DNA of 22,007 bases from a virus. The notes under the pieces are model-generated. The model was not told where the DNA came from. It ran no database searches and worked only from the letters and a program-made list of their open reading frames with translations. Positions 4,288-18,740 of this stretch are shown here, piece after piece (the first letter of the stretch is position 1; every line of letters begins with the position of its first letter). Made by a program: the position numbers and the translations under genes. The DNA lies in IMG/VR virus record IMGVR_UViG_3300007735_000859, positions 1-22,007 of that record. One strand, written 5' to 3'.

Positions 4288-5058
4288 ATGTCTAAGTTTG
4301 CCTACTATATTGGCGTGGACCACCGTGAACCTGATGCACTGCGAGTTACCGAGGCATCTGTCCGAGCCTACGCCTCTAAGCCTGTCGATGTCAAGCATCT
4401 AGAACACATCGACCTGCGCCGCCGTCAATTGTTCGACCGGCCCTGGCGTGTCAACGAAGACGGCACCTACACTGACGAACGGGACGGCAAACCATTTAGC
4501 GTACAGTTCTCGCATACGCGCTTCCTCACTCCAATCGTAGCCAAGTACGACGGCGTCACTGACTGGGCGCTCTTCACAGACTGCGACTGGTTGTGGCTCG
4601 ACGACATCCATAAGCTGCTCCTTGAAGCTGATCCTAGCAAGACGGTCATGGTAGTACCACACCGCTTCGAGCCTGACAAGTCCACCAAGATGGATGGGCA
4701 AGTCCAGTCCCGCTACAAGCGCAAGATGTGGTCGGCCCTGATGCTTTGGAACATGAAGTCCAACAAGCTGCCCACTGTCGAGATGGTCAACGAAGCCACC
4801 GGCAATCACCTCCATACCTTTGGCTGGCTGCAAGATTCTGACATCGGCTACCTGTCGGAGTCGTGGCACTGGATTCCAAACTACAGCCCAACAACTGAAG
4901 TCGCTGTGCAAGCCGAAGAGCAGAACAGGCCCGTGCCTGTCAACGCTGTCCACTTCACATACGGGCCACCCGTAGCTGGCATGCTGGACCGCGAGCCTAC
5001 GCCCTTCGATAACTTCTGGACCAACGAACTAACGGACGCTTATCATAATGCGCGCTAA
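4288..5058 (+). CDS. GT-A fold glycosyltransferase-like protein
   Basis: The 256-residue protein looks like a single-domain nucleotide-sugar glycosyltransferase of the GT-A fold, loosely GT8-like. It has an N-terminal strand 'AYYIGVDHREPDAL', then 'DWALFTDCDWLWLDD' (about residues 92-106), whose D-C-D triad fits the metal- and sugar-nucleotide-binding DxD motif. A later 'AVHFTYGPP' (about 221-229) could be the C-terminal His that often completes the metal site in GT8 enzymes. An in-frame GTG at 4282 is possible, but ATG 4288 is preferred because it coincides with the predicted transcription start. The gene overlaps the next by 11 bp, so the two are probably co-expressed. The acceptor is unknown: virion protein, host surface glycan or modified DNA base are all possible. 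Confidence 0.65.
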   Translation: MSKFAYYIGVDHREPDALRVTEASVRAYASKPVDVKHLEHIDLRRRQLFDRPWRVNEDGTYTDERDGKPFSVQFSHTRFLTPIVAKYDGVTDWALFTDCDWLWLDDIHKLLLEADPSKTVMVVPHRFEPDKSTKMDGQVQSRYKRKMWSALMLWNMKSNKLPTVEMVNEATGNHLHTFGWLQDSDIGYLSESWHWIPNYSPTTEVAVQAEEQNRPVPVNAVHFTYGPPVAGMLDREPTPFDNFWTNELTDAYHNAR

Positions 5059-11843: not shown

Positions 11844-12603
11844 GACTGATAGACTCGACGTCGAACTCGCCGGGCGCGTAGAAATTAAGCAAGTGGACGC
11901 CGTTCCACCACAGCTTCTTGGCGGCCTTGGCATAGGCAAAGTCCCCGTTCGGGTCCACGAAGCAACCGGCTACTAGGGCGTGGAGCTTGGAGCCGTCGGC
12001 CTTGGTGCGGGTAGCGGTGGACAGCAGGTGTGAGTGGCCGCAGATGCACGAAGAATGCTGGGACTTGAGGAGGTTATTGGCGTGGTGTTCGCCGCCTTGG
12101 GGCCGACCCATTACGCCGCTGACGAAGTAGTGCTGGAAGATGGCGCCGTAGATGTTGGCTGGTTGCAGGAACTTATGGTAATTGATTTTGACTGGGGCGC
12201 GGTAGGTCTTGATCAGTTGCTGGACAGTCTTGGGAAAGTCCGACGTCAGCAGCCGGTTGTCGGAAGCCATCCACTTGTTGTAGCGCTCTTCGTGGTTGCC
12301 TTCGATGAACTCGATGTCAGCAGTCCCGCATGCGTAAGCAATCGAAATGATCTTGTCGAAGGCTGCAAAGCCAGCCTCAATGTCTTTGGAGAGGGATCGC
12401 TGATACCAGTGCGGGGAGTCCATGTCGTGGGTGCAAAGCGACTCAAAGTCCCAGAGGTCACCGATGTGAACGACCTTGTCCAGCTTGACGTTGCGCCCAT
12501 TGAGGAGGGCCATCAGGCCGTCGAAGCGATCCAGATTGTCGCCCGGCATGGCGTGGGTGTCTGGGATCAGGAGGACGGTCTTAGGTTGGAACTTGGTCGC
12601 CAT
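11827..12603 (-). CDS. Calcineurin-like metallophosphoesterase
   Basis: The 258-residue protein shows the metallophosphoesterase motifs in order: 'IPDTHAMP' (D15, H17), 'HIGDLWDFE' (GDxxD, 48-52), 'FIEGNHEER' (GNHE, 102-105) and 'ICGHSHLL' (GHSH, 189-192). These residues normally bind two metal ions and hydrolyse phosphomonoesters or phosphodiesters. Phage relatives are annotated only generically; the substrate cannot be read from sequence, and nucleotides or nucleic-acid ends are plausible given the neighbours. ATG 12603 has AAGG about 9 nt upstream and lies inside the end of the preceding gene (23-bp overlap). A promoter for the next genes is embedded in its 3' end. Confidence 0.88.
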   Translation of the reverse strand: MATKFQPKTVLLIPDTHAMPGDNLDRFDGLMALLNGRNVKLDKVVHIGDLWDFESLCTHDMDSPHWYQRSLSKDIEAGFAAFDKIISIAYACGTADIEFIEGNHEERYNKWMASDNRLLTSDFPKTVQQLIKTYRAPVKINYHKFLQPANIYGAIFQHYFVSGVMGRPQGGEHHANNLLKSQHSSCICGHSHLLSTATRTKADGSKLHALVAGCFVDPNGDFAYAKAAKKLWWNGVHLLNFYAPGEFDVESISLERLK

Positions 12604-12967
12604 GGGAGCTTGCCTTCTTGGTGTTGTCGGATATGAACTCGTTAGTGTAGCCAGCTACAGGCCGGTCGTCTTGCAGCCACGGCCCGCTGTCAGCGTCCAT
12701 GAGGATGCAGAGGTTGGCAGCAGCATGTGCTAGGTGGGAGAGGCCGGTCTCGGGGTCGTTGTTTTGACCGTCCCACCATGCCATCAGGTGTCGCATCGCT
12801 GCGTCGTAATAGGTGGAAGAGGAGACCGGGTCCTTGCGCCAATTCAGCGGGCCATACTTGGCGGCGCCGATTGCCATGACCTGACCGACGGCGAGGAGCG
12901 GAAGGGGCGGCACCTTACTGAGGCCAGGCTTCGCGAGGCCGTATTGGGTCTTGGGATTGGCGTCCAT
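12581..12967 (-). CDS. MazZ/DUF5664-type dATP/dGTP diphosphohydrolase-like protein
   Basis: The 128-residue protein carries 'GAAKYGPLNWRKDP', 'YYDAAMRHLMAWWDGQNNDP' and 'ETGLSHLAHAAANLCILMD', an all-alpha, His/Asp/Glu-rich pattern that I associate with the family annotated as dATP/dGTP diphosphohydrolase (DUF5664). Members are related in role to MazG and MazZ pyrophosphatases. If active it would hydrolyse purine dNTPs to monophosphates. The ATG overlaps the previous stop as TGATG. The neighbouring dUTPase supports a nucleotide-pool function. The family is common in phages with ordinary DNA, so it does not by itself imply modified bases. Confidence 0.78.
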   Translation of the reverse strand: MDANPKTQYGLAKPGLSKVPPLPLLAVGQVMAIGAAKYGPLNWRKDPVSSSTYYDAAMRHLMAWWDGQNNDPETGLSHLAHAAANLCILMDADSGPWLQDDRPVAGYTNEFISDNTKKASSHGDQVPT

Positions 12968-13153: not shown

Positions 13154-13612
13154 TTAGACTCCTGTTGAGCCGAGGCCCGAGGCCCCGCGTTCTGTGGTTG
13201 TGAGGTCGTCAATTTCTACAACTTCTAGTTGCGGGAGGGGCAGGACCATGAGTTGGGCGATACGCATACCCGGTTCGATCATGAAGATGTCAGGCGAGGG
13301 CCATTGCGGGGAGAAGGGATGGCGGGCCAAGATGACTTTGAGTTCGCCACGGTAGTCTTCGTCGATTACGCCGGGCGCGTTCAGGACTTGGATGCCTTCC
13401 TTGGCGGCGAGACCAGAGCGTGAGCAAACCAAGCCGACGTGACCAGGAGGAAGTTCGATGGCGATGCCGGTGCCGACGGTGCGGCGAGTTCGCATGTCGT
13501 CGAGCCATTGCTGTTCGTCAGCGTAAAGGTCGAAGCATGCCGCCCCAGCAGTTGCTCGGGTAGGGAGGATTGCGGTCTTGGTAAGCCGCTTGAACTTTAG
13601 AGTCCTAACCAT
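13154..13612 (-). CDS. dut: dUTPase (dUTP diphosphatase), trimeric type
   Basis: The 152-residue protein holds all five dUTPase motifs in order: 'AACFDLYA', 'VCSRSGLAAKEG', 'LNAPGVIDEDYRGEL' (uracil pocket with catalytic Asp), 'GMRIAQLMV' and the Gly-rich 'RGASGLGSTG' C-terminal arm that closes over the nucleotide. It hydrolyses dUTP to dUMP and pyrophosphate, keeping uracil out of DNA and feeding dTMP synthesis. ATG 13612 is chosen over ATG 13618: AAGGA lies at a proper 6-nt distance from it, and the promoter at 13621-13649 should start transcription at about 13614-13612. It overlaps the preceding nuclease gene by 16 bp. Confidence 0.95.
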   Translation of the reverse strand: MVRTLKFKRLTKTAILPTRATAGAACFDLYADEQQWLDDMRTRRTVGTGIAIELPPGHVGLVCSRSGLAAKEGIQVLNAPGVIDEDYRGELKVILARHPFSPQWPSPDIFMIEPGMRIAQLMVLPLPQLEVVEIDDLTTTERGASGLGSTGV

Positions 13613-14052
13613 TGGCATTCCTTATACTTGGTAGGAGGTATCTCGTCAAGCTTATATATACTAAAAGGTTTCTTATGTGAAGAAGTTTTTGCGTTCTTAT
13701 AGACTTGCAAATAGGAAAGGGTGGCGTTGGGGTAGATGGCTTGGACGATGGGGCCATAGAACTCTATGAGTTTCTTGCGGGCCGGACCCATCCATGTCAG
13801 TTTGATTTCGACTATGCAGAGGTGGTCGTCTGTCAACCAGAGAAGTGCGTCGGGCTGGCAGACGCCGGATCGCTTGGGCGTTTTGTAATAGAGCCAAGGC
13901 GACAGGTCGATGCGGGGATACAGGGCAACGAGCCGCTTGTGGACCGCCCGCTCGAAGGAGATACCCGCCTGTTGTGCTTTAGTTCGTTTTTGTTTGGGGA
14001 ACTGTGGTACGTAGTCAGCGTGACGTGCAACAACAGGCGAGCCTAACTTCAT
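13597..14052 (-). CDS. PD-(D/E)XK nuclease-like protein
   Basis: The 151-residue protein has the restriction-endonuclease-like core: 'GISFERAVHKRL' (helix with Glu), 'GVCQPDALLWLTDDHLCIVE' with the Asp of the PD motif, then 'VEIKLTW' giving E-x-K. Its size is similar to T7 endonuclease I (gp3), a junction-resolving enzyme of the same fold that also sits with DNA metabolism genes, but direct sequence similarity is not obvious. It may resolve branched DNA or degrade host DNA. ATG 14052 overlaps the previous stop as ATGA, with GGAGG 3 nt upstream. The 3' end is notably AT-rich and hides the dUTPase promoter. Confidence 0.75.
   Translation of the reverse strand: MKLGSPVVARHADYVPQFPKQKRTKAQQAGISFERAVHKRLVALYPRIDLSPWLYYKTPKRSGVCQPDALLWLTDDHLCIVEIKLTWMGPARKKLIEFYGPIVQAIYPNATLSYLQVYKNAKTSSHKKPFSIYKLDEIPPTKYKECQWLGL
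13621..13649 (-). promoter_or_regulatory. Sigma70-like promoter of the dUTPase gene, near-leaderless
   Basis: On the minus strand TTGACG (13649-13644), 17 bp, and TATAAG (13626-13621) each match consensus at five of six positions. The -10 box ends 8 nt before ATG 13612, so the transcript would have about 0-2 leader bases. It lies in the unusually AT-rich 3' end of the nuclease gene. The AAGGA ribosome site overlaps the -10 box, so it could serve only read-through transcripts. Confidence 0.55.
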
Positions 14053-14375: not shown

Positions 14376-14571
14376 AGTATCCACTCCTTGCGTTTGATAC
14401 GGGTTGAACGATGTTGGTGCGGATCACCCAGATGTTGGTGCCGTTGGAAGGGTCGATGGCCTTTTCAAGCCACACCTTTACAACGTAACCGCGCTTGCGC
14501 CACCAGTTGCGGATGTCTGCCATCAGCTTGTAGTTGGCTGCGCGATCCGCCAGATAGTCATGCCTTGCCAT
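14365..14571 (-). CDS. Small basic hypothetical protein
   Basis: This 68-residue protein ('LADRAANYKLMADIRNWWRK', 'GYVVKVWLEKA', 'IWVIRTNIVQ') starts inside the polymerase 3' end (14-bp overlap). GGAGG lies 4 nt before ATG 14571. Its Trp-rich basic helix and short beta hairpin would suit a small nucleic-acid- or protein-binding fold. A similar short protein occurs in other phages, but I know of no function. Confidence 0.7.
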   Translation of the reverse strand: MARHDYLADRAANYKLMADIRNWWRKRGYVVKVWLEKAIDPSNGTNIWVIRTNIVQPVSNARSGYCVD

Positions 14572-15997
14572 TGGGCCTCCATTTCTTCAGGCCGTCAGGG
14601 TTCTTGTCGCTGGCCTTGCCCCAGTTATACCCGACTTCGACATCAAATGGAATCATTATTTCACGGCTGATGCCTTTGATGTCGGTCACTGGGAAAGGAA
14701 AGCGAAGGCATTCAAGAACTTCGGGTAGCAGTTCGTCGGCCTTGTCAATGCGGACCTGGCCGAGAACAGCATCGTGTAGGTTCAGAAGTATTTGAACGTC
14801 GGCGCCGGGCTTACCTTCGAAGCGTTCCCATATCTGGTAGATGCCGATGTTCATTAGGACACCGACGCAGTGCTGGGGTACGAAGGCAATGGCTTCGCGC
14901 AGGGTAGCATCGTCCCAGCGCCGGTTCCAGAAGTTGCGCCGGATACCGAAGGGCGTGATCAGGTAGCCCTTGGTCTGTAGCTGGTTGGCTACCCATACGT
15001 GCCAGTCGCTGATGCCGGGGAACCGCTTGAAGTACTGGGCCTGGAAGGCTTCAGCTACGGCGGTTTCGACCTTCATCTGCTGTGCCAGGGTGAACGGCTT
15101 TCCATAATAGTTACTGCCGTGGGCGCCCCTCTTTGTAATGTCACGGTAAGAATAGCCACGGTAGTATTCGCGTTCAGCAAGCTCGCGGTCTGGCGCGAAA
15201 CCAAAGACCATGGAAGCGACCATTGTGTGTGAGTCGCCACCCTCCACTGCCGCGATGTAGTTATCATCGCCGGATAGATACGCAACAATGCGCGCTTCTG
15301 CTCCCTGTTGATCAGAATAGAAAAGTAGATAGCCTGGATCAGCAACGAAGCAGGTGCGCGCTTCCTTCGGTATGTTTTGAAGGTTACTTCCGATACGGAA
15401 CGGATGTTCACTTGACGATAGTCGGAACGTCTCAGTGCCTGCGATATTGAACGCTGCATGGAAACGGTTGCTGGGCGACAGCTTCTTACTAAGAAATTCG
15501 ATTTGCTTTTCAAGGTCGCGGATGCGGAGGATGTGGTTGGCGAAGAAGGCACCGCGCGGGTATTCACGAGCGATGCGTTCGAGGATTTCGCGGTCGGTTC
15601 CAACTTTGGTTTCTCCTTTCTTGGATTTGGTTTGCTCGGGGATGGCGAGCATTTCGTAGAAGAGGACCATGAGCTGGGGCGTGGAGTTGTGGTTGACTGT
15701 CGTGCCCCATAGCTGCTCGCAGACGTAGTCGAAGTTGGCTTGGACGTGGTCAGCGCGGGCGCGTAGTCCGGCTACCAAGGTGTCGCGCCGGGCCGTGTCG
15801 ATCTGGACGCCGCGCCGCATCATGGTCATGATAGGACCGAGCATCAGTTCGCTGTAGCGGTGGGTGGTCGCGGCCCAGTCAGGAAGAAGGCCCTCGTCGT
15901 AGATTTCTTTGAGGGCCATCGTCTGCATTGTGTCAAGGGAATTGTATACGATCTCTTGATTTTCAGGAGTCGGGGTCAGGTCCGTCAGTATCTTCAT
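14558..15997 (-). CDS. Family A DNA polymerase, polymerase half (split from its exonuclease)
   Basis: The 479-residue polypeptide carries the Pol I palm and fingers: 'LQNIP' (206-210), motif A 'YSDQQGAEAR' (catalytic Asp229), motif B on the O-helix 'RDITKRGAHGSNYYG' (Arg285, Lys289, Tyr297), and motif C 'NLHDAVLG' (catalytic Asp409). Two deviations stand out: the residue four after the O-helix Lys, equivalent to Phe762 of E. coli Pol I, is His293, and the usual HDE is HDA. The first 30 residues contain 'VYNSLDTMQT', the Exo III motif YxxxD (Tyr18, Asp22), so the protein starts in the middle of the exonuclease domain. ATG 15997 has its own GGAGA 5 nt upstream. It should replicate phage DNA, presumably with the product of 16594-17538. 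Confidence 0.93.
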   Translation of the reverse strand: MKILTDLTPTPENQEIVYNSLDTMQTMALKEIYDEGLLPDWAATTHRYSELMLGPIMTMMRRGVQIDTARRDTLVAGLRARADHVQANFDYVCEQLWGTTVNHNSTPQLMVLFYEMLAIPEQTKSKKGETKVGTDREILERIAREYPRGAFFANHILRIRDLEKQIEFLSKKLSPSNRFHAAFNIAGTETFRLSSSEHPFRIGSNLQNIPKEARTCFVADPGYLLFYSDQQGAEARIVAYLSGDDNYIAAVEGGDSHTMVASMVFGFAPDRELAEREYYRGYSYRDITKRGAHGSNYYGKPFTLAQQMKVETAVAEAFQAQYFKRFPGISDWHVWVANQLQTKGYLITPFGIRRNFWNRRWDDATLREAIAFVPQHCVGVLMNIGIYQIWERFEGKPGADVQILLNLHDAVLGQVRIDKADELLPEVLECLRFPFPVTDIKGISREIMIPFDVEVGYNWGKASDKNPDGLKKWRPNGKA

Positions 15998-16289
15998 TGG
16001 TGTCTCCGTTGAGGAAGTTATTTCGCATACGGGTAAGCAGATGCAAAGTCAAGGGAGGACCGTCATAGGATTTGGCAAAGCGCCGGACACGGGTCGGGTC
16101 AAGGTCAGCAGCCAGACAAACTTCGTCGAAGTTCTGGGCGGTGGTGCCAAACTCAGCGGTGAGCCATGCGTGAGCCTGCCGCTTGTTGACTAGGGCTACT
16201 GGTGTCTTGGGTTCGGAGGTAGCGTCTATGAGCGCTTGGATAATTACGCTCGCCCATAGACGCCTGATGCCTGAATCTTCTTCGCTCAA
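15963..16289 (-). CDS. Small alphaproteobacterial-type protein, possible DNA-binding regulator
   Basis: The 108-residue protein has the pattern 'RRLWASVIIQALIDATSEP' ... 'RQAHAWLTAEFGTTAQNFDE' ... 'VCLAADLDPTRVRRFAKS'. I recognise it as a small family in alphaproteobacteria and their phages. The second half is compatible with a helix-turn-helix, so DNA binding is plausible but unproven. The start is TTG 16289 (ATT 16292 is possible); no strong ribosome site is seen, so it may depend on the gene ending 12 nt upstream. It overlaps the polymerase start by 35 bp and is one of the two genes separating the polymerase halves. Confidence 0.72.
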   Translation of the reverse strand: MSEEDSGIRRLWASVIIQALIDATSEPKTPVALVNKRQAHAWLTAEFGTTAQNFDEVCLAADLDPTRVRRFAKSYDGPPLTLHLLTRMRNNFLNGDTNEDTDGPDPDS

Positions 16290-16300
16290 AATGTCGGTAC

Positions 16301-16573
16301 TTATTTAGATTTACCGACCTTTTGTGCTTTCTTAGATTCCTCTTTGAGTTCCGCGTTGGAAGTCTTGTCGGCCACAGTGACCGTAAAGAACTCGGGAACC
16401 TTGAGGCCAGTGGCTTCTTCGAACATCTTGCCAAGCTTGTTGTAGTCACCAAGCTCAAGCGTCCTGTTCATCCACTCGTTGAAGACTTTTTCGAGAGGAT
16501 AGGTCTTAACAAACTCAGCGGTTTTGCCGAAGTCGATGGTCGCGTAGACCGATAGTCCAATAGTTTTTTCCAT
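16301..16573 (-). CDS. Hypothetical 90-residue protein between the polymerase halves
   Basis: ATG 16573 is preceded by GGAGA 6 nt upstream. The sequence begins with a beta strand ('GLSVYATIDFG'), has a helical middle ('LEKVFNEWMNRTLELGDYNK', 'LGKMFEEATGL') and a highly charged Lys/Glu tail ('ELKEESKKAQKVGKSK'). No homing endonuclease, intein or maturase motif is visible, so it does not explain the split polymerase as an intron or intein. No family is recognised. Co-location suggests a replication accessory role, as inference only. Confidence 0.7.
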   Translation of the reverse strand: MEKTIGLSVYATIDFGKTAEFVKTYPLEKVFNEWMNRTLELGDYNKLGKMFEEATGLKVPEFFTVTVADKTSNAELKEESKKAQKVGKSK

Positions 16574-16593
16574 GGTAGTTCTCCGTCAGCAGG

Positions 16594-17538
16594 TTAGTCG
16601 ATTGCTCCTGCCTTGTTAAAGTCTTTTTTGGCCTTGGTTCGAAGGTGCTTCCATGCGCGGGTCGGTATGTGAAGGGAGGCTAGGAAGCCCAGCGACTTTT
16701 CCCATTCCGGTTGCCATGCGTGGTGGCGAAGCATCGTATCGAAGATGTGGCCTTTAGGTCTTATGCCATAAGCATCAAGGTATGTCAAGTCATAGGTGGC
16801 GTTATGAAATCCCCATGACAAGTCGGGACGTTGGGCCAGATACCAAAGCCACATCCAGATGTCACGCTCGTCGGCTTCGGACCAGATGTGTTGGTAGGCA
16901 CGGTCTTCTAGCTGGACGTACAGGCAGCGGTCTGACGACGTGGCTACGGAGAACTCGGTGATGCGGCAAGCCTTGTTGGTTTCTACGTCGAAGACAATTT
17001 CATCGCCGATGTAGCGGGTCGAAAAGTCGTAGAGGTCGGCGACCGTTTCGGGCAGGTGAATGGTGCGGGGCCGGTCAGTGTAGCGGGTCTGGACTTTACG
17101 CATAGCGGATACTACGACGGGCCGTTCGTTCCAAGCCATGCGCGCGTAGAGGGTGGGCGCGTAGGTCGGAACCACCTGCAAGCCCTTGACGAAGGGGCTG
17201 TCGATGTGGGTGCCCCGGAAGGTGTCCAGCTTGGTTTCGCCGGTCAAGCAGTGCATGGCATGGGGACCCATGGTCAGGGCCATGTCATAGCCTTGCAGGT
17301 CAGCGCATAGCTTAACGAAATCGTCTTGGGCTAGGCGCGTGAGCGGGGCGCCCGGCTTGCCACCGACAAACAGGGTAGGCCACTTGGCGGTGTAGGCCCG
17401 GTGTGCGGTATGGATACTGGTCGGACGCAGGCCCGCCGCTTGCAGCAGTTCCTGCGTTACCTTCCATTCCCACTCGGAGAGTGGGCCACCGTTGGCAGCG
17501 TCGACCGAGGGCCAATCAATTACTAGGGCGATCTTCAA
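16594..17538 (-). CDS. UDG-like fold plus DEDD 3'-5' exonuclease, N-terminal half of split PolA
   Basis: In the 314-residue protein, residues about 1-150 resemble the uracil-DNA-glycosylase-like domain found at the N-terminus of some phage polymerases ('YDMALTMGPHAMHCLTGETK', 'GLQVVPTYAPTLYAR', 'RPVVVSAMRKV'). The usual 'TYHP' is 'TYAP', so glycosylase activity is doubtful. Residues about 178-300 are a DnaQ-like exonuclease with Exo I 'IVFDVETN' (D184, E186) and Exo II 'GFHNATYDLTYL' (N246, D250). The protein ends before Exo III, which lies at the start of the polymerase gene. The start is TTG 17538, supported by GGAG 7 nt upstream and by overlap with the previous gene (23 bp). Confidence 0.85.
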   Translation of the reverse strand: MKIALVIDWPSVDAANGGPLSEWEWKVTQELLQAAGLRPTSIHTAHRAYTAKWPTLFVGGKPGAPLTRLAQDDFVKLCADLQGYDMALTMGPHAMHCLTGETKLDTFRGTHIDSPFVKGLQVVPTYAPTLYARMAWNERPVVVSAMRKVQTRYTDRPRTIHLPETVADLYDFSTRYIGDEIVFDVETNKACRITEFSVATSSDRCLYVQLEDRAYQHIWSEADERDIWMWLWYLAQRPDLSWGFHNATYDLTYLDAYGIRPKGHIFDTMLRHHAWQPEWEKSLGFLASLHIPTRAWKHLRTKAKKDFNKAGAID

Positions 17539-17707
17539 GGGGAAGCTCCATCTGCTCAGGCGGATACTTGTGAACTACGGGGATGTTTACCCAATGACCG
17601 TGGGCATCTTTGGTTTGAATGGCATAGGTGGTTGGACGCGGCTTGCCTTCCTCTGGTGAAGACCAGTTCTGAACTACGCGCAGTGTCGGCACGGTGTTGC
17701 GGCACAT
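17516..17707 (-). CDS. Small hypothetical protein, 63 residues
   Basis: The ORF has a compact beta-rich look ('TYAIQTKDAHGHWVNIPVVH') and an acidic, Pro-rich C-terminus ('PPEQMELPLEDRP'). A GGAGAAG precedes ATG 17707 by about 8 nt, and the ATG overlaps the previous stop as TGATG. It overlaps the exonuclease gene by 23 bp. No family or function is recognised. Confidence 0.65.
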   Translation of the reverse strand: MCRNTVPTLRVVQNWSSPEEGKPRPTTYAIQTKDAHGHWVNIPVVHKYPPEQMELPLEDRPSN

Positions 17708-17962: not shown

Positions 17963-18481
17963 TTAGCGTTCCTTGTAGAAGACGTGGTTGTCGATGCGGG
18001 CAGTCCGCCGCAGATGGCGCCATCCTACTATGGATGTGTCGTGGAAGTAAAGGGCGCCGTGCGTCAGGTCAGGGATATTTGAAAGGGCCAGTTCGGCAGC
18101 CTCCCTAGCTTGCGCCACGTCGGTGACATTTGCTAGGGGTAAATGTCGGCGCGCGGTGCAGGCCCACGAGAACTGGCAGGAGTTGCCTCGGCGCTGGAAG
18201 ACTACATCGCAGACGTCAGGCGGGAAGCGCACGTCGTTGGCCCTGTTAAGGATGACTTGGCCTACGGCGATCTGGCCTGCGCGTGACTGGCCTCGGGCTT
18301 CCCAGTAGATGGCGCGGGTTATGCAGTTCAGGTAGCGGTCGCGGTTGTTGGTGTCGTTCCATTCTACTTCGATGGGGCTAGGCGGCACGGCGATGGCTGG
18401 CAGGGGTTGCGCCCATACCAGACCCGCCAACGCCATGACCGGCCAGTAGATCAGAACATCACGCACTAGGCGTAGCTTCAT
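17963..18481 (-). CDS. Secreted cell-wall hydrolase, SleB/Hydrolase_2 type
   Basis: The 172-residue protein starts with a likely signal peptide or signal anchor ('MKLRLVRDVLIYWPVMALAG', 'LVWAQPLPAIA'). A SleB-type domain follows: 'AIYWEARGQSRAGQIAVGQV' with the expected catalytic Glu61, 'ILNRANDVRFPPDVCDVVFQ', 'CQFSWAC' and 'DLTHGALYFH'. SleB-family enzymes are peptidoglycan hydrolases, usually lytic transglycosylases. ATG 18481 is chosen because GGAGG lies 8 nt upstream; the longer form from 18517 would put 12 hydrophilic residues before the signal. It lies among replication genes far from holin and endolysin, so it may be expressed earlier or serve a different purpose. Confidence 0.85.
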   Translation of the reverse strand: MKLRLVRDVLIYWPVMALAGLVWAQPLPAIAVPPSPIEVEWNDTNNRDRYLNCITRAIYWEARGQSRAGQIAVGQVILNRANDVRFPPDVCDVVFQRRGNSCQFSWACTARRHLPLANVTDVAQAREAAELALSNIPDLTHGALYFHDTSIVGWRHLRRTARIDNHVFYKER

Positions 18482-18740
18482 CTTCCTTCCCTCCTGCCAG
18501 CGCGGCGCGGGCTTCATCCAAAGCAGCTTCTAATTCTTCAGTGTAGCACTCAATACCTATACTGTTTAGAACACGCTCACCTTCATGGGCGTATAACTTA
18601 CGCAGCGCCGCTTCCAATTCCGAGATGCGGTCGGCGGCTTCAAATGGTGCGCGATCAAAATAAATCCCTCGGCTACCTTCATTCTGAAGGCGCAGCCATT
18701 TCGCCGTATTCCGCAACCGCTTCACAAGATCATCACTCAT
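18459..18740 (-). CDS. Small coiled-coil protein, paralog of the 19040 gene
   Basis: The 93-residue protein starts 'MSDDLVKRLRNTAKWLRLQN' and has a heptad-like helix 'AADRISELEAALRKL' and an Ala/Glu-rich end 'EELEAALDEARAALAGGK'. ATG 18740 follows GGAGAACCCA; the in-frame extension upstream overlaps another gene and lacks support. Two stretches of DNA are shared with the gene at 19040-19276 (20 and 16 identical bases), and the ribosome sites are almost identical, so the two are duplicates. Function unknown. Confidence 0.7.
   Translation of the reverse strand: MSDDLVKRLRNTAKWLRLQNEGSRGIYFDRAPFEAADRISELEAALRKLYAHEGERVLNSIGIECYTEELEAALDEARAALAGGKEDEATPSA

Follow-up and report, generated by a model that had tools for sequence, protein, structure and literature searches.

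The open reading frame at 14558..15997 on the minus strand of the 22,007-base IMG/VR virus record analysed here (the window) probably encodes the catalytic half of a replicative family A DNA polymerase (PolA), which belongs to a viral clade with histidine at the position of E. coli Phe762 and whose proofreading site would be rebuilt from two proteins. The division of the proofreading domain between two neighboring genes, here called gene 1 and gene 2, was overlooked by the first-pass annotation and is a more surprising feature than the histidine itself. The polymerase gene and its motifs are as follows.

14558..15997, minus strand: gene 2, 479 amino acids, a family A polymerase (palm, fingers and thumb) with the last part of a 3'-5' exonuclease domain (Exo III); open reading frame, PF00476, structural model and Klenow fold
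15290..15316, minus strand: motif A, SDQQGAEAR, with D229 at D705 and E234 at the steric gate position, E710; motif alignment
15101..15145, minus strand: motif B and O-helix, RDITKRGAHGSNYYG, residues 285-299; motif alignment
14873..14893, minus strand: AIAFVPQ, with a clade-specific Ala at the position of E. coli N845 and Gln at Q849; alignment and co-fixation count
14768..14779, minus strand: motif C, LHDA (N-L-H-D-A), with H408 at H881, D409 at D882 and A410 at E883; motif alignment

Gene 2 starts with an ATG at 15997, a few bases downstream of a GGAG stretch resembling a ribosome-binding site, and stops at 14558. Its product is a family A DNA polymerase: it matches PF00476 in a profile search with an E value of 7.3e-42 (144.1 bits against a curated cut-off of 34.3), it carries the catalytic Asp pair and the lysine equivalent to K758 (K289), and its AlphaFold model, with a mean pLDDT of 90.0, superposes on Klenow residues 468-928 (1kfs_A) with a Z score of 30.9 and an rmsd of 4.3 over 418 aligned residues. 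The histidine that had been read from the sequence at position 762 was confirmed on this minus-strand frame. A gapless MAFFT alignment of motif B with the E. coli and T7 enzymes sets H293, encoded by the CAC codon at 15119..15121 (minus strand), on E. coli F762 and T7 Y526, as well as N296 on I765 and Y297 on Y766 in E. coli numbering, and phmmer sets it on Taq F667. The helix predicted at residues 284-296 of the model is the O-helix and holds H293, in agreement with the Klenow superposition. Nothing was found in favor of the opposite idea, namely a mis-registered O-helix whose true residue at 762 would be Phe, Tyr or Leu, and given the concordance of both alignments, the predicted helix and the superposition there is practically no chance that it is correct. 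Motif C is indeed HDA rather than HDE, with A410 in the place of E883.

Viral PolA are classified, and the lifestyles of their phages predicted, by residue 762, and with His293 and a separate branch in the tree, gene 2 falls outside the known F/Y/L762 viral groups. In the sequences collected, His762 defines a large viral clade that has been little noticed and that is uncommon by sampling only. The description of gene 2 as an uncommon polymerase subtype thus holds in that this PolA is a subtype distinct from the F/Y/L762 ones, and fails as to rarity. Searching IMG/VR with the window protein found 45 loci, 40 of which carry H762, four being fragments that end short of the site and one, L047 (24% identity), carrying F. 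A scan using intact relatives as queries and patterns clear of motif B gave H762 by alignment in 78 of 80 cases, the remaining two (L129 and L130) being H by eye in another frame; from position 4898 onward in these two contigs, the H762-type motif B lies out of frame with the upstream polymerase part, which makes another interrupted polymerase gene. In a wider scan, at least 561 IMG/VR stretches encode a relative, and all 80 kept loci are H762; the scans overlap in contigs, and the H counts of scan A4 are biased by a pattern that included HGSNYYG. Among named phages the clade has hardly any records: H762 was found in at least six records of a 50,697-record collection (Kuura, ctMlz233, Mel-JY34, EBPR podovirus 3, a Desulfofustis phage and Vibrio phage VS-ABTNL-3), a lower bound, given that few of the remaining matches in it were read. 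The top 80 GTDB genome matches, 23-29% identical to the query, include no H762: 66 have F, 13 have Y and one, unreadable in the alignment, is F by eye.

A PolA tree was built from 101 rows by a quick method, with the columns of motifs A, B and C removed and four contigs left out for their inteins or irregular frames (L042, L196, L129 and L130); its 67 H762 rows require a single change, on one branch with an SH-aLRT of 99, and the long branches of L050 and L051 group together. As for earlier surveys, the part of Keown et al. 2022 available to us (PMC9069017) states that a sequence was retained if its residue 762 was F, L or Y, therefore the His762 clade could not appear in that IMG/VR survey. 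The consulted section of Nasko et al. 2018 (PMC6302109) has a table restricted to F, Y and L that holds 2,045 of 2,095 SERC sequences, and the excerpt of a 2026 study on T7 (PMC13228545) describes tests of Y526F and Y526L. We found no paper in the open-licence literature on a His762 class, nor on any PolA whose exonuclease domain contains the split, and the sections consulted of PMC12632393, PMC11348598, PMC12926913 and PMC9629493 mention neither.

The histidine does not come alone. When 100 H rows are compared with 99 F/Y/L rows (from phages, at below 90% identity, and from GTDB), position 765 is N in 86, H in 11 and D in three of the H rows and mostly hydrophobic in the others, position 845 is A in 98/100 against N in 97/99, and position 883 is S in 80 and A in 19 against E in 94/99, the S883 counts of scan A6 being biased by one pattern that spans motif C. 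L or Q occupies position 706 in 98 of the 100 H rows and A position 709 in 98, together with retention of D705 and R668 (100/100 each), K758 (98/100), Q849 and D882. In Klenow, the active site is lined by N845, E883 and Y766, among others. Because H762 travels with this co-fixed set, it is part of a rewired pocket. The change at E883, which we considered as an unusual trait of its own, was rejected, since F762 and L762 phages share it: HDA is found in NoShow (F762) and HDS in T5-like phages (F762) and in phiVC8 (L762). HDA alone therefore says little, and its presentation as unusual was not borne out, HDA and HDS being ordinary within the H762 clade. In the mechanism that we envisage, His762 would replace Phe or Tyr beneath the sugar moiety of the dNTP that enters the site and would work within the rewired set (N/H/D765, A845, S/A883, L/Q706 and A709), the catalytic D705, D882, K758 and R668 being kept. 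Its ring nitrogen may act as a hydrogen-bond donor like the hydroxyl of T7 Tyr526, which would let the enzyme use dNTP well and discriminate weakly against ddNTP; we put this Tyr-like role forward only tentatively, as somewhat less probable than its contrary.

The first-pass annotation had suggested instead that the enzyme might be tuned to an altered nucleotide pool, and this suggestion found no support. The window encodes two proteins of nucleotide metabolism adjoining the replication genes, both found by profile search.

12581-12967: dGTP_diPhyd_N-type protein
13154-13618: dUTPase

These two genes speak for tuning of His762 to a modified pool (a Z-genome or another base modification), as does phiVC8 DpoZ, an earlier case, according to the available part of PMC8599892, of tuning to dZTP in a PolA; DpoZ, however, has L762 and not H, and H762 is constant over a very diverse clade. 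Moreover, PurZ was detected in none of 20 records (several of 54-63 kb, possibly fragments), and neither was a thymidylate-synthase/hydroxymethylase homologue or QueC, while the controls were found in 14/14, 9/14 and 12/14 genomes, respectively. We therefore regard a modified pool as very unlikely to explain the histidine. Integrase was absent from 20 of 20 records, and lysogeny was set aside because of this absence and because the best GTDB matches are distant, with F or Y: the phages of the clade look virulent and are treated as such here. Inside the replication gene block, the window also encodes at 17963-18517 a protein resembling by eye a SleB-type cell-wall hydrolase.

The second feature concerns the exonuclease domain. 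Upstream of gene 2 lie two small open reading frames and gene 1, and the exonuclease motifs are distributed over the two larger genes.

16594..17538, minus strand: gene 1, 314 amino acids, TTG start, a degenerate UDG-like region and the first part of the 3'-5' exonuclease; PF01612 and phrog_17
16978..16989, minus strand: Exo I motif DVET (D355 and E357), in gene 1
16789..16803, minus strand: Exo II motif NATYD (D424), in gene 1
16301..16573, minus strand: gap open reading frame of 90 amino acids with no Pfam or PHROG match, present in 11/61 split contigs
15963..16289, minus strand: gap open reading frame of 108 amino acids with no Pfam or PHROG match, sharing 35 nt with the beginning of gene 2, present in 39/61 split contigs
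15932..15946, minus strand: Exo III motif YNSLD (Y497 and D501), residues 18-22 of gene 2

Gene 1 matches the phrog_17 DNA polymerase family with an E value of 2.2e-14 and PF01612 with 1.4e-5, above the cut-off. Some relatives are intact, with UDG, exonuclease and polymerase in one chain of about 800 amino acids, and the two proteins of the window together match these over their whole length, one after the other. As Exo I and Exo II are in gene 1 and Exo III is in gene 2, the metal-binding triad of one domain is divided between two genes, and the DEDDy residues D355, E357, D424, Y497 and D501 are all present. These five residues are invariant in 38/38 split rows (four contigs being counted twice, hence 34 distinct) and in 68/68 intact rows (one of them an F762 phage, L053), a count made, like the tree, with L042, L196, L129 and L130 left out. 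In every split row examined, the break falls at about residue 365-371 of the intact relative, in whose model (mean pLDDT 90.9 overall and 78 in the ten-residue block with the break) this site is a loop, residues 366-373, between two helices.

Gene 1 supplies Exo I and Exo II, gene 2 supplies Exo III and the polymerase, and the two proteins probably bind non-covalently to rebuild one DEDDy proofreading site, as other genes-in-pieces enzymes do; judging from the conserved residues, they would assemble in trans into one proofreading polymerase. Alternatively, gene 1 could be a leftover or a separate nuclease and gene 2 alone an exo-minus polymerase, the split having ended proofreading. It is true that gene 1 changes faster (identity of 0.67-0.84 versus 0.84-0.91 for gene 2) and that its UDG-like region has lost its motifs when aligned to intact relatives, so that part of gene 1 is decaying. 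The unchanged exonuclease residues of the 38 split rows are unexpected for a dead site, and so is the dN/dS of gene 1, 0.08-0.17 in seven close pairs; that of gene 2 is 0.06-0.10 in six pairs, the seventh being saturated, and all these ratios are rough because dS is near saturation. Both genes look to be under purifying selection, and in each of 20 records this PolA is the only one. A loss of proofreading is on this evidence improbable, and assembly of gene 1 and gene 2 into one site remains the reading that we favor.

How the split arose is less certain. Most likely, judging from the gene contents of the gaps, a homing endonuclease inserted itself: the split would have arisen in the ancestor of the window's subclade, at the loop before the Exo III helix, an endonuclease gene would have entered at the break, and the lineage of the window would later have lost it or replaced it by small genes. 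Open reading frames of the HNH or endonuclease VII type, of three kinds, occur in the gap of 9/61 split contigs (four of one type, three HNH-AP2 and a related HNH pair in L136 and L137). This origin is drawn from a minority of cases, since the window's own gap holds no endonuclease, only the two small frames without family matches, and 52/61 split contigs have no gap match to the endonucleases queried. It is also quite possible, at somewhat less than even chances, that a stop and a re-start in the loop split the gene by chance and that endonucleases and other genes settled in the gap later. Besides the many gaps with no endonuclease detected, this is consistent with L186 and L187, in which gene 1 and gene 2 touch (gaps of -11 and 3 nt) with nothing between. 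Against a chance split, L136 and L137 are further splits at the identical site, although in the tree they fall among the intact relatives, and these two independent, later events both hold related HNH frames at the break. We retain endonuclease insertion, of the kind described for Aeh1 nrdA (PMC2988022), as the preferred origin.

Other explanations of the interruption were examined. A group I intron at the break was rejected on the grounds that no Rfam match was found, up to an E value of 1, across 14400-17700. A split intein was rejected as well, for there are no intein halves and only a few residues separate the break from the end of gene 1 and the start of gene 2; against a sequencing error speaks the occurrence of the same split with differing gap contents in dozens of contigs. 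Inteins, which are homing elements too, do occur elsewhere among the relatives. A close one (L042:1102-3459) has an in-frame intein in motif B, placed precisely at the G/S junction in HGSNYYG, with a weak match to Pfam Intein_splicing, and a distant one (L196:5929-8382) has a second intein, with a LAGLIDADG_3 match, before the SGDLH stretch. In a contig of a Daviesbacteria MAG (L211), a bacterial Pol I shows an apparent intein after NHPVQG, near the Q849 motif.

A natural His762 enzyme offers a test of the role of residue 762, and Kuura, Mel-JY34 and VS-ABTNL-3 provide isolates or complete genomes to work from. With its divided exonuclease, this family A replicase would have a proofreading site that is naturally in two parts, and could help to learn if proofreading can be turned on and off or provided as a separate component. 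The broader picture, a very extensive clade of virulent phages in which His762 with N/H/D765, A845 and S/A883 acts on the incoming nucleotide by a chemistry unlike that of the Phe, Tyr and Leu enzymes and part of which proofreads in trans, adjustably through the supply of gene 1, is speculative, and we hold it to be rather unlikely in its entirety.

The F/Y/L762 groups of viral PolA, in the parts of PMC6302109 and PMC9069017 consulted, have the same family A fold and the same frame of motifs A, B and C as the window, which differs from them by His at 762 with its co-fixed residue set. Split PolA as such is already known: phage ctwe8250 (Y762) has two genes annotated as DNA polymerase in its record, separated by a small one, the break there coming after the exonuclease gene. 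Within the H762 clade, the intact UDG-exo-pol PolAs (ctMlz233, Microcystis phage Mel-JY34 and IMG/VR L063-L142) carry all exonuclease residues and HDS, and differ from the window in being one protein of about 800 amino acids and in having D710 where the window has E710. Fusion of UDG to PolA has been published for the jumbo phage PaBG, according to the portion of PMC7412058 at hand. Caulobacter phage Kuura (OQ067476) shares the window's layout, with a separate UDG-exo gene, two small genes and then the polymerase gene; like the window, its polymerase has H762 and N765, with HDS as motif C. The two polymerases are, however, only 33.7% identical, gene 1 of Kuura keeps a detectable UDG domain (E value of 3.1e-15), and its small genes gave no match to the window's gap frames in a query search. 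In a Kuura-like virus, an RNase H-like gene (L062:5157-5678; phrog_531, E value of 3.4e-13) occupies the polymerase gap. The cultured Vibrio phage vB_VspS_VS-ABTNL-3 (MF497422; L368 3456-6590) also has H762 (KAGGHATNYR), HDS, a UDG-exo part and two genes, but is split elsewhere: the break lies in the polymerase domain, after QNLPKGDG and before motif A, and an uncharacterized gene separates the two parts.

The nearest precedents for the arrangement itself are the genes-in-pieces enzymes Aeh1 NrdA/mobE and Aeromonas phage 25 gp43A/B, in which, according to the text of PMC2988022 available to us, one ancestral enzyme is likewise encoded by two genes, endonuclease genes are found at the breaks and the pieces reassemble. 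The window shares with them a gene that is interrupted in comparison with intact homologues and of which both pieces are kept. Those precedents concern a ribonucleotide reductase and a family B polymerase, whereas the window holds a family A polymerase in which the break divides the proofreading triad.
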